A stretch of 64,000 nucleotides of DNA, taken from assembly GCF_040515995.1 (NCBI RefSeq), contig NZ_CP159485.1:2170001-2234000 (forward strand), in the 5' to 3' direction. Shown here in pieces: positions 57,354-64,000 of this stretch. Source of the stretch: Proteinivorax hydrogeniformans (lineage in GTDB: Bacteria; Bacillota; Proteinivoracia; Proteinivoracales; Proteinivoracaceae). The position numbers and the translations under genes were made by a program. How positions within the stretch are numbered: the stretch's first letter is position 1; each line of letters begins with the position of its first letter. The notes below the pieces were generated by a model that did no database searches, was not told the origin of the DNA, and saw only the letters and a list, made by a program, of their open reading frames with translations.

Positions 57354-57375
57354 GGCAAGACCTCCTTTGGTGTTG

Positions 57376-57443
57376 CAGGTGCGGTTGGCAGGTGCGGTTG
57401 GCAGGTAGCTGGTGGCTGGTGGCTGGTGGCTGGTGGCTGGGGA
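57376..57443. repeat. Tandem repeats, 13-bp and 7-bp units
   Basis: Two exact copies of GCAGGTGCGGTTG (57376-57401), then GCAGGTA, four exact GCTGGTG units and GCTGGGG. The 7-bp period is the same as in the repeats at 14.58 and 21.93 kb, though the units differ. Confidence 0.9.
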
Positions 57444-57722
57444 TAGAAAAATGTTTAAGATCGGGTCGGCACAGAGGCACGACCCCTCCCCTTGACAGGG
57501 AAGACCAAGGCGCCTAGATTCTAGAAGCAGGACACTCACATTTTGCTGCCCCCTAATTTATGCTGTGTGTAACGAAGGCAGGTGCTTTTCGATGTTCTAG
57601 GGGTGATAGTGAAGCAACGAAGTCAGATACTTTTCGATGGTCTAGGGGTAAACATTTAAGCAACGAAGGCAGGTGCTTTCCCGACCCCACTAGGCTGCTT
57701 AGAGGCGCCTAGATTCTAGGCG

Positions 57723-57783
57723 CAATGGCATTCCCAGGGCGGGAGCGTATATATAATACGTGACTGGTCTGGGAATGACATTG
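57723..57783. repeat. Long hairpin, copy A
   Basis: Arms CAATGgCATTCCCAG and CTGGGAATGaCATTG (14 of 15 paired) with a 31-nt loop containing CGTAT-ATATA-ATACG, a small inner stem. The loop is identical to copy B. Confidence 0.9.
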
Positions 57784-57846
57784 AAGCAACGAAGGTAGGT
57801 GCTTTTCGACCCCACTAGGCTGCTTAAAAGTGCCCAGATTCTAGGC

Positions 57847-57909
57847 GCAATGTTTACCCCAGGGCGGGAGCGTATATATAATACGTGACTGGTCTGGGGT
57901 AAACATTGC
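57847..57909. repeat. Long hairpin, copy B
   Basis: Perfect 16-bp arms GCAATGTTTACCCCAG / CTGGGGTAAACATTGC with the same 31-nt loop as copy A. The arms differ from copy A at the centre, yet pairing is kept. Confidence 0.92.
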
Positions 57910-57930
57910 AACAACGAAGATGGGTGCTTT

Positions 57931-58935
57931 TTAGCAGCCTAGCATGAATTCGGAAGTATAAGCATACAACGCCGGCGCCCCTCCGGAATGAATAAACAAC
58001 ACTTTATCATCGGAATTGAAGCGGCCTTTTTTAATCAAATCTATTAGACCGGACATGGTTTTCCCTGTATAAACTGGATCTAATAAGATTCCTTCGGTTT
58101 TTGCTACTAGCTTTACTGCTTCTACCATTTCCTTTGTGGGCAGGGCATATCCTGGACCTATATAGCTATCATAGCAGGTTATTGATTTTTCAGAAATCGT
58201 ATGCTGTAGTCCAAGCCGCTTTGTGGTTTCGCTTACTAGCTTCATAACTTTCGGCTCCATTTTTTCTTTAGGTCTGCTGATACTAACTCCTAAGACTTTT
58301 GTTTGACTTTGGTTTACCTCAAATCCTGTGATAAGACCTGCATGCATACCCCCGCTGCCACTTGTGCATACAACGTAATCAAAAGATATACCTAGATCAA
58401 ATGATTGCTGGATAATTTCTTGTGCACAGGATACATATCCTGTTGCCCCTATAGAGTTTGAACCTCCTACAGGAATTTTGTATGGTTTACCACCGTTTGC
58501 GTAAACTTGCGAAGCTACTTTATCCATCTCTTCAAAAACATCAGTTCCGTTGGGAACTATTCTCACATCTTCCACACCCATAAGGTTGTAAAGAAAGTAG
58601 TTTCCGCTTTTTTGGGTGTCATGCTCTACGGCGGCACTTTCTTCTAAAACTAGGATACAGTTTAAGTTTTCTCTATTGGCGGCTGCTAAAGTTAGTCGAC
58701 AGTGATTCGACTGCACTCCTCCTGCTGTTATAATGGTGTCTGCTCCTTTTTCCAAAGCGTCTGCAATCAAAAACTCCAACTTGCGTGTTTTATTTCCACC
58801 GGCTGTTAATCCTAAAAGATCGTCCCGCTTTATATATATATTAGGTCCTCCTAAGCTTTTAGATAATTTTTCAAGATTCTCTATAGGTGTGGAAAAATCT
58901 GTGTACTTCCTTCTTGGCAAAGATGTCAAATCCAT
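57931..58935 (-). CDS. dcyD: D-cysteine desulfhydrase / ACC deaminase-like PLP enzyme
   Basis: 334 residues, normal for the family. The PLP lysine is in TAGGNKTRKLEFLIA, with AGGVQSNHCRLTLAAA after it, SGSGGMHAGLITGF as the phosphate loop and FIHSGGAPALYAYTSEF near the end. Such enzymes degrade D-cysteine to pyruvate, sulfide and ammonia; the ACC deaminase reaction is the main alternative. A GGAGGAG site precedes the ATG. The final codons (MLGC) share CTAGGCTGC with the downstream repeat array, so the repeat touches the gene end. Confidence 0.87.
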   Translation of the reverse strand: MDLTSLPRRKYTDFSTPIENLEKLSKSLGGPNIYIKRDDLLGLTAGGNKTRKLEFLIADALEKGADTIITAGGVQSNHCRLTLAAANRENLNCILVLEESAAVEHDTQKSGNYFLYNLMGVEDVRIVPNGTDVFEEMDKVASQVYANGGKPYKIPVGGSNSIGATGYVSCAQEIIQQSFDLGISFDYVVCTSGSGGMHAGLITGFEVNQSQTKVLGVSISRPKEKMEPKVMKLVSETTKRLGLQHTISEKSITCYDSYIGPGYALPTKEMVEAVKLVAKTEGILLDPVYTGKTMSGLIDLIKKGRFNSDDKVLFIHSGGAPALYAYTSEFMLGC

Positions 58936-61143: not shown

Positions 61144-61172
61144 TAAGCACCCACTTTCAAAGAGTGGGTGCT
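61144..61172. terminator. Shared terminator, small membrane protein and LRR genes
   Basis: 11-bp perfect stem AAGCACCCACT / AGTGGGTGCTT with a 7-nt loop, T-rich on the plus side. It sits between convergent genes. Confidence 0.75.
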
Positions 61173-62617
61173 TATTTTAGGTTAACCATGAGATTTTCCC
61201 ATCTAATTTCACTTTCATTTTGTCTAAGGTTATACTTAATTTTTAAATTTGCTTTTTCTTCGTCCCACACCAAAAACCTAGGTGTTATTGGATTATCAAA
61301 TATGGAGCTATCTTGCTTAGCCACACTTACTACCTTCTGGAGGTCTCCAGCTTCAGATAACCTAAAATCTGCAATTTGCATATCCCTTACCTTGCCTTCA
61401 CTTGTAATAACCATGAAAACATACTCCCTAGAAGGTGACCACTCTAACTGAACCTTTTCATCATCAGTAACCGTTATATAGTTAGAAATTGCGGCACCAT
61501 CAAAAACCATATTTTCTATCGAGGGTAGCGAAACTAACTGACTATAAGCTTGGCTAGAGTTGTTATTCTGTATATCTAATTTAGCAAGCCTGTCTAGTTT
61601 AGCTAACGGCTCTACATTATTGATATTGTTATAAGAAAGGTCTAGCTCAGTTAAGTTTTTTAAGTTAGCTAACGCATCTATGTCTTCAATTGCATTATTT
61701 TTTAAGCACAACTCCTCTAGACCATGAAGACCCTGTAATGCAGTAACGTCCTCTATTTTATTACCTTCTAGCTTTAACACCTTTAAATTTGTCATGTTAG
61801 CTAAAGGAGTTAAATCCGCTATTTGGTTATGTGATAAGTCTAGCTTTTCTAAACTAGTAAGATGTAAAAGGGGGCTCAAGTCGGTAATTGAGTTATGAGA
61901 AAGATCCAACTCCTTTAAGTTAATTAAGCCTCTTAAACCGAATAAGTCATCTATATCGTTATTCTGTAGGTTTAATGATCTTAAACTATTTAACTTTTCT
62001 AAGTCTGAGATGGTACATATGCTACTATTAGGCAGGTTTAACACTTTTAACTGTGACAAATGTCTAATCCTATCCATCCCTGCAATTGCCGCATCTTCTC
62101 TAAACTCCAAACTAATTTCTTGTAAGTTTGTTGCATACTCTAAGCCGGTCAAATCATTTATTTGACTTGTGGTAGTTAAAGTTTTAACTTTTTTTAAGTC
62201 ATCTTTTGTTAAATTTCCCTCTACTTCTAATAAGGCTTTTAACTCCTCTTTTAACTCCCCCTGTACTAACAAGCTAACAAAATGAGCCTCAACTTCACTA
62301 TCTTTTTCCACCTCAAATAACAGTTGCTCTTTATCATAAATTTTTTCTCCATCTACAATCCACTTTTCTAAACGATACCCATCTTTAGGCTCTGCAGTTA
62401 TCGCTACCTTCTGTCCTATGTTATAGCCTCCTCCCCCCTTTACGACCCCTCCCTCCTTTGGTATCGCAATGGCGTTAATTTCCTTAAGATGAGAACTGCT
62501 TGCCACATAGGCAGCGCTAAAAATAATTAACAGCATTAACACCGTCACAATCTTTTTGTTCTTCTTAACCGGGATTACAATTTTGTCTGATATAAGCTTC
62601 TTCTTTAAGCTAAACAA
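61172..62617 (-). CDS. Internalin-like LRR protein with InlB-type B-repeat
   Basis: About 481 residues. An N-terminal basic segment and helix (VLMLLIIFSAAYVA) anchor or export it. An InlB B-repeat-like domain follows (VAITAEPKDGYRLEKWIVDG). About nine 22-residue internalin-type leucine-rich repeats of the pattern LxxLTxLDLSxNxIxDLxPL come next, and a C-terminal beta-rich domain ends it. No sorting signal is present, so it is membrane-anchored or secreted. The likely start is the TTG at 62617, with AGGGGTGG upstream; a GTG at 62626 is the alternative. It follows a second LRR gene by 15 nt. Confidence 0.83.
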   Translation of the reverse strand: MFSLKKKLISDKIVIPVKKNKKIVTVLMLLIIFSAAYVASSSHLKEINAIAIPKEGGVVKGGGGYNIGQKVAITAEPKDGYRLEKWIVDGEKIYDKEQLLFEVEKDSEVEAHFVSLLVQGELKEELKALLEVEGNLTKDDLKKVKTLTTTSQINDLTGLEYATNLQEISLEFREDAAIAGMDRIRHLSQLKVLNLPNSSICTISDLEKLNSLRSLNLQNNDIDDLFGLRGLINLKELDLSHNSITDLSPLLHLTSLEKLDLSHNQIADLTPLANMTNLKVLKLEGNKIEDVTALQGLHGLEELCLKNNAIEDIDALANLKNLTELDLSYNNINNVEPLAKLDRLAKLDIQNNNSSQAYSQLVSLPSIENMVFDGAAISNYITVTDDEKVQLEWSPSREYVFMVITSEGKVRDMQIADFRLSEAGDLQKVVSVAKQDSSIFDNPITPRFLVWDEEKANLKIKYNLRQNESEIRWENLMVNLK

Positions 62618-62632
62618 TAAAACCACCCCTAA

Positions 62633-64000
62633 TTAAAAGATTTCTATAAAGACGTCCACACCTTCCTTTTGCAAATCATTGGCAATTTCCCGCAGCTTAG
62701 CTTCTTCCATATTGTTGCTACCTAGCGAAACAAACTTCAAACTTTTAAATTCAAATAATAAGGAAAAATCTTCAATTAAGTTTCCACTTAAATATATGCG
62801 TTCAACGTTTTCTAGTGCTGCTAGAGGTGTTATGTCTGCTATGCGGTTTCTAGCTAAAGCAACACCCCTTAATTTCGATAAACTACTTAATGGAGTTAAG
62901 TCCTCAACTTTGTTGTTGCTCAATGTCAGTTCTTCCAGCTTATATAAATTTTTAAGGGGAGTTAAGCATTTTATCTCATTATGTCTAAGTAACAGCGTAT
63001 CAAGGTTTGTAAGATTTTCAACTGGGCTAATGTCTGAAAGTTGGTTGTCAGTTAATTGTAGGGTTTTGAGATTGTGCAAGGTTTTAATTGAGGATATATC
63101 ACTTATATTGTTGTAACTTAGATCTAGCTCCTCTAAATTATCTAGATTTTCAAGTGGAGATAAGTCACTTATGTTATTTTCTTTGAGACTTAGTGAGTAT
63201 AGATTATCTTTATCGCTTAAAAAGCTTAAGGACTCTATTTCTTGACGAGCTATGGCAAGTTCACTAAGATTTAAAAGCTCTTTTACAAAACTTAGGTCAC
63301 CATTACTATTCCTTATATATCTAAGAGTTTTCACATTGCTAAGCCCATTAAGAGCTTTGTTATCCTTTATTTCATTTGATGCTAGTTCTAACTTGCCTAA
63401 ACTAGGTAACTTATCTATCCCCTCTAAGCTATCTATCTTAGAGTTACTCAAGTATAGCTCATTTAGCTTTTTCATATCTTTAAAAACGTAAACGTCATCT
63501 ATACCTATGCCAGTTAGGAATAAACTTTCAAGCTTTGTTAAATTACGCAATCCTTCCTCTAAGCCTTTAACATCTTCTATTTTTGTAGTTTCATCAAAGT
63601 CTAGGGTTAGTGATAAGTGCTTTAGGTTTGGTAACTTGTTTAAAAATTTATAATCGTCTATTTCTACACTAACTATTCTAAGCTTTTTTATGGTCTGATT
63701 ATGTTTTATATCGCGCAAGTCATTTATGGTGTTACCATAAAATCCCATTTTTTCTAAACTTGTAAAGTTTTCAAGTCCTGATAAGCTGTTAACTACTGTG
63801 TCATTGTAAAATCTCATTTCTTGGATTTGTTGTAGCTCCTTAAAAGTTTCAAGACTATCTAAGTTTATATCTGAAAAAGATAATGTCTTTAAGTTTTGCA
63901 AATCTTTTAAGGGACTATAGTCAGTTATATTGTCATTTGAAAATGTAATTTCAGCTAAGTTTTCGGCATATTGCAACCCCTCTAAACTAGTAGCACCAAC
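62633..64000 (-). CDS. Internalin-like LRR protein (5' end outside window)
   Basis: 456 residues visible; the frame is open to the window edge (reading VGATSLEGLQYAENL at the start), so the N-terminus is missing. About 19 leucine-rich repeats of 20-24 residues run through it, for example NLEELDLSYNNISDISSI and NLDTLLLRHNEIKCLTPL. The C-terminus ends in a short non-repeat segment (LREIANDLQKEGVDVFIEIF), with no wall-sorting signal. It is the upstream partner of the LRR gene at 61.2 kb. The pair probably acts at the cell surface in binding. Confidence 0.85.
   Translation of the reverse strand, partial: VGATSLEGLQYAENLAEITFSNDNITDYSPLKDLQNLKTLSFSDINLDSLETFKELQQIQEMRFYNDTVVNSLSGLENFTSLEKMGFYGNTINDLRDIKHNQTIKKLRIVSVEIDDYKFLNKLPNLKHLSLTLDFDETTKIEDVKGLEEGLRNLTKLESLFLTGIGIDDVYVFKDMKKLNELYLSNSKIDSLEGIDKLPSLGKLELASNEIKDNKALNGLSNVKTLRYIRNSNGDLSFVKELLNLSELAIARQEIESLSFLSDKDNLYSLSLKENNISDLSPLENLDNLEELDLSYNNISDISSIKTLHNLKTLQLTDNQLSDISPVENLTNLDTLLLRHNEIKCLTPLKNLYKLEELTLSNNKVEDLTPLSSLSKLRGVALARNRIADITPLAALENVERIYLSGNLIEDFSLLFEFKSLKFVSLGSNNMEEAKLREIANDLQKEGVDVFIEIF

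Follow-up and report, generated by a model that had tools for sequence, protein, structure and literature searches.

Twin hairpins in the genome of Proteinivorax hydrogeniformans are probably tandem units of a mobile repeat of the ERIC kind

ERIC repeats, on which a common typing method rests, and REP palindromes, which depend on a tyrosine transposase, are the described systems closest to the element analyzed here. ERIC (IRU, RU-1) is an imperfect palindrome of ~127 nt that is dispersed at gene borders. Its range is given as Enterobacteriaceae and Vibrionaceae in a 2024 review (PMC10969869), and the same two groups are reported elsewhere (PMC2267715, PMC2759123); no literature linking ERIC to other phyla was found in the literature collection searched, and a search for the motif letters of the present element returned nothing relevant. 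The multicopy intergenic sequences of Geobacter (PMC2700814) are likewise intergenic families of palindromes; they come from Deltaproteobacteria, in which the present element is common, and may be comparable to it.

The repeat described here is best regarded as an ERIC-like MITE in a host group for which these papers do not describe ERIC. It came to light as twin hairpins at positions 57723-57909 of the window, that is, the whole 64,000-nt stretch of the P. hydrogeniformans contig that was analyzed (NZ_CP159485.1, positions 2,170,001-2,234,000). These coordinates hold for the inner hairpins, but the units extend farther, into outer stems that in unit B pair 57815-57841 with 57916-57942. The array consists of two tandem units of ~125 nt with identical cores (Table 1), which make up a direct repeat (D1, 57682-57806 versus 57807-57931, 125 nt, 86% identity), and of decayed units upstream of these, spanning 57488-57683; within 57571-57683, there are three AACGAAG..GTGCTT motifs, one of them with the 3' arm of copy B. 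Each unit is an imperfect palindrome of ~130 nt with two conserved internal loops, namely AGATTCTAGGCGC opposite GCAACAACGAAGAT, and the G-A loop of GNAGCGTAY..RTACGTGA. The inner hairpin is the inside part of this fold: unit B forms, from 57815 to 57942, a single end-to-end hairpin of 128 nt (z -14), and none of the 200 shuffles folded as well as the inner hairpins of either unit. The core is found as exact copies at three places in the genome and as near copies at two more.

The inner stem reads CAATG-G-CATT-CCC / GGG-AATG-A-CATTG in copy A and CAATG-T-TTAC-CCC / GGG-GTAA-A-CATTG in copy B. The four consecutive pairs that the first-pass annotation had singled out as differing between the copies yet paired in both (T-A/C-G, T-A/A-T, A-T/T-A and C-G/T-A, from the inside out) are indeed present, as is the T-A pair of copy B in the place of the G x A mismatch of copy A. 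The loop had been described as identical, which is correct, and as 31 nt long, which is not: it spans 41 nt (CCCAGGGCGGGAGCGTATATATAATACGTGACTGGTCTGGG) and is itself partly paired.

Table 1. Features of the repeat array and the adjacent gene, in window coordinates
Feature	Position	Strand	Support and remarks
Weak remnant of a further unit	57488-57600	+	R1 16 bits, E 0.033 in window
Decayed 3' halves of earlier units	57571-57683	+	families D2 and D3; inverted repeat I9
Unit A	57682-57806	+	D1; R1 123.7 bits; R2 66 bits over 57703-57806
Inner hairpin A, variable stem with one G x A mismatch	57723-57783	+	inverted repeat I4; z -7.6
Conserved core, unit A (G-A internal loop and apical hairpin)	57737-57770	+	
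Unit B, complete, closed by outer stem	57807-57942	+	R1 160.6 bits; R2 116.3 bits
Outer stem of unit B, 5' arm	57815-57841	+	inverted repeat I3 with 57916-57942; fold
Inner hairpin B	57847-57909	+	inverted repeat I1; fold z -10.1
Conserved core, unit B	57862-57895	+	
Outer stem of unit B, 3' arm	57916-57942	+	extends into the 3' end of the facing gene, whose stop codon it provides
Adjacent gene, pyridoxal-phosphate-dependent enzyme	57931-58935	-	Pfam PF00291, E 1.8e-52

Searching the genome and its relatives with a covariance model, as had been proposed for the twin hairpins at the outset, was productive: the model made from six units (R1) detects ~49 copies in the same genome. It also detects ~20 each in a congener and in a second genus of the family, as well as 4 in a distantly related family of the phylum. 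Some sites are common to two species of the genus and one is common to two genera, which is compatible with a retained function as well as with a mobile element. The two half-motifs occur with equal frequency (41 for the 3' half, 39 for the 5' half), so that a retro-element with 5' truncation, which was also considered, is unsupported. About 10 copies are located inside a larger conserved composite repeat of ~300 nt (L051, L053, L061 and L062 of G000; L036 of G001) that has inverted ends of its own (GGGTTTGTCATTTACTGGC .. AAATGACAAACCC), and ~eight 66-nt repeats (GACCCAATAAAACCACTTAGATGTGCCTAAAACTTAGGCACGATACAAA..) lie directly upstream of one copy (L004, 1500-2100, reverse strand).

The element reaches far beyond this family. 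When the core pattern was scanned over one genome per species, the loci listed came from many phyla and, among the matches listed, nearly all displayed loci have the same long hairpin with the same loops; R1 scores were 82 bits in Rokubacteria, 76 in Alkaliphilus, 66 in Nitrospirae, 66 in Scalindua and 62 in Bacteroidales. A second model (R2) was built from 51 hits of other phyla, with the genus of the window and the enterobacteria left out; the R2 scores of the training loci are flattering because these loci were preselected by the core motif and their alignment was fitted to R1, and the window units and the enterobacterial copies are outside the training set. R2 recovers unit B with 116 bits and unit A with 66 bits. 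In whole-genome searches, its copy numbers per genome are highest in Scalindua (at least 150) and Evansella (144), followed by Bacteroidales (109) and Nitrospirae (98); Alkaliphilus has 43 and Ruminococcus 38, with only 5 in Enterobacter and only one in Acetobacterium. In the phylum to which the window belongs, 42 of the 299 genomes have a match at E <= 0.001, so that the distribution of the element is patchy and R2 does not match indiscriminately. Alphaproteobacterial loci from Sphingomonadales and Rhizobiales (L128, L143, L167, L178 and L186) combine the shared core with an inner stem that is distinct and longer (CCGG..AGCGTAC..GTACGTGAGCACCGGAA), and are perhaps a separate branch.

The final codons of the adjacent gene (LGC and the stop) fall in the element: the gene ends with ..AYTSEFMLGC*, running into the element, whereas the element-free orthologue in genome G001 ends with ..AYTSEFL*, and two further copies likewise take the place of the terminal codons of genes whose G001 counterparts have no element. 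These three orthologous element-free sites show insertion at gene ends; at this one junction, compared with the terminal repeats and TA duplication of ERIC in view, the gene-side sequence is ATGCTAGGC in the window versus TTGTAAG in the element-free site. The copies are antisense to the adjacent gene, with the 3' end against its stop codon, in 44 cases versus 5 mirrored ones (p 8e-9; G000-G002, facing genes of at least 100 aa, with neighboring copies of one array not being independent) and in 36 versus 12 across phyla, and in many phyla the outer stem often begins at the stop codon or within a few nucleotides of it. Orientation counts from 1.7-kb loci, where ORF calls are unreliable, were discarded. 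A replication-driven orientation was tried and not retained, on a weak comparison that assumes a split of the chromosome halves at 1.4 Mb (the element follows the gene at 2 of the 21 sites where gene and chromosome half disagree).

Mobility of the element is supported at the sequence level, by element-free orthologous sites and by near-identical copies at separate sites in Scalindua, and several hallmarks of a MITE are found, namely dispersed copies, presence or absence at orthologous sites and zero coding capacity. Among the options originally offered, the REP/MITE-like mobile hairpin is supported as to mobility but not as to the REP/RAYT system. The twin hairpins are, in our judgment, likely to be two tandem units of a mobile MITE-like repeat that belongs to one structural superfamily with ERIC/IRU. 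Such an element would spread as a non-autonomous one, via a putative enzyme that reads the folded strand by its conserved loops, and the stems might afterwards drift or be swapped between copies, with pairing restored. In the host, the hairpin would probably sit as a structure at the 3' end of the adjacent mRNA and influence the end or the stability of this transcript, by analogy with the literature on Yersinia, where ERIC at gene 3' ends exposes an RNase E site and lowers the mRNA in an orientation-dependent manner (PMC10969869, PMC2229807). An intrinsic terminator was rejected as the sole function because the combination of A-run, GC and T-run is present in some stems and lacking in others.

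It is possible, albeit not probable, that the copies instead represent a functional RNA, such as a 3'-UTR regulator or a target of an RNase or another protein, that has been multiplied and is selected by the host rather than being a selfish mobile element. The loops conserved over large distances, the strong covariation, the sites common to different species and the position tied to stop codons all agree with such an RNA, but only 42 of the 299 genomes of the phylum carry the element, it is missing at orthologous genes, near-identical copies are dispersed in Scalindua, and the strand that folds better is the one antisense to the adjacent gene. Rfam 15 covariance models yielded no match in the window at the gathering score and, for six loci searched with E up to 5, no match to the element above the gathering score of a family.

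The fold itself is maintained, as had been proposed from the two copies. In the alignment of 44 copies (A4), the two internal loops and the apical hairpin are near-invariant, whereas the stems vary with pairing retained: double compensatory changes occur at 30 of the 37 pairs, with none of the 500 shuffles matching the observed values (216 double compensatory cells compared with 53 in shuffles), and pairing is lost when the partner is shifted by one column. Unit B has a fold energy of -81.8 kcal/mol on the plus strand versus -62.9 kcal/mol on the minus strand, the plus strand folding better because several pairs are G-U on this strand only. At pairs with C-G/U-A exchange, G-U intermediates outnumber A-C intermediates by 104 to 13 within the family and by 79 to 40 in the comparison of phyla, a count limited to columns with Watson-Crick exchange because the structure of A4 came from a plus-strand prediction. 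This excess suggests that one strand, apparently the plus strand, folds on its own, be it as RNA or as single-stranded DNA, and disfavors the protein-bound cruciform that had been among the initial options.

Two orthologous loci show inner hairpins that have changed en bloc from one species to the other, with the outer stem and the flanks kept, so that some of the double changes may not have arisen as compensatory mutations in their own right, and the covariation of the twin copies may come in part from exchange between copies rather than from stepwise compensation. To this extent, the earlier notion that the fold is made by the copying mechanism retains some support. That copying, through quasi-palindrome correction or exchange of inner hairpins, accounts for the covariation of the twins entirely, with the fold being unselected, appears unlikely: the block replacements favor it, as does a decayed unit of the array that also contains the 3' arm of copy B, but the loop positions have stayed unpaired, whereas correction would yield perfect palindromes, and G-U is far commoner than A-C among the intermediates.

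The conserved central core and loops of ERIC are present here; the two loop motifs come in the same order and are recovered by one covariance model, R2, which matches both window units and ERIC; the length and the location at gene borders are similar; and the E. coli ERIC copies examined share the orientation of the window element to the facing gene, one ending inside the facing stop codon region and the other 55 nt from one. In contrast to ERIC, the stem and terminal sequences are different, tandem arrays are a trait of the element here, and its hosts, that is, the phylum sample and the relatives, lie far outside Enterobacteriaceae and Vibrionaceae. Two loci found with the pattern, in Enterobacter and Klebsiella, read as ERIC; with the Enterobacter locus as the query, there are ~12 matching places per E. 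coli genome. R2 has matches in 23 of 40 genomes sampled from the enterobacterial family, those without a match being mostly reduced, and for 11 of the 16 sampled enterobacterial R2 loci there is an alignment with ERIC of 77-127 nt. With plain blastn, the window unit and ERIC are joined over no more than 28 nt, which would account for the link having gone unnoticed, and similarity to the ERIC consensus does not extend over the full length, so that the element is classified as ERIC-like rather than as ERIC. A tandem array also occurs in Rouxiella aceris (L154, 4503-5116), where five copies with a 122-nt spacing resemble the tandem units of the window.

Convergence, with unrelated mobile hairpins having merely similar loop motifs, is an improbable source of this resemblance. 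The stems share no sequence between phyla, and the loop motifs are the link, but both loops, their order and spacing, the unit length and the orientation to stop codons all agree, and R2, trained with the enterobacteria left out, recovers ERIC in whole genomes. On this evidence, the ERIC-like kind of element is far more widespread than the cited papers state. A broader view, to which we give an even chance, is that an ancient class of structured elements extends over all bacteria, with ERIC as its branch in the enterobacteria, and that these elements are inserted at stop codons in a fixed orientation and are read by one widespread loop-reading machine, which would be either an unrecognized transposase or a core RNA factor.

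A REP-type element moved by a RAYT (Y1) transposase is very improbable: hairpin repeats near gene ends, a RAYT-like gene in this genome, a remnant located ~500 nt from one copy cluster, and a RAYT-like gene ~600 nt from a copy in G002 are in its favor, but the units are ~130 nt rather than 20-40 nt long, no copy lies within 2-3 kb of the intact gene here, three genomes that carry 35-109 copies lack Y1 matches, and genomes without copies do contain them. The transposase look-up suggested at first did turn up a RAYT-like gene, but Y1 genes do not track the element, and no cognate mobilizing enzyme was found among the Y1 transposases, the class searched. The intact RAYT-like gene is flanked by two identical 404-aa ORFs in inverted orientation, in a composite-transposon-like arrangement (L349, 672-4406; G000:C1:2258500-2264500).

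If the superfamily spans many phyla, its mobilizing enzyme can be sought by comparing carrier with non-carrier genomes, and the rule of orientation toward stop codons can be put to the test; in Nitrospirae, Bacteroidales, Scalindua and Clostridia, an identity would then be available for elements that are so far unannotated and number tens to hundreds in each genome.

Elsewhere in the window, a short G/T-rich tandem repeat (GCTGGTGGCTGGTG) occupies 57373-57440, immediately upstream of the start of an acetyltransferase gene, and two neighboring minus-strand frames at 61172-63976 read as leucine-rich repeat proteins.
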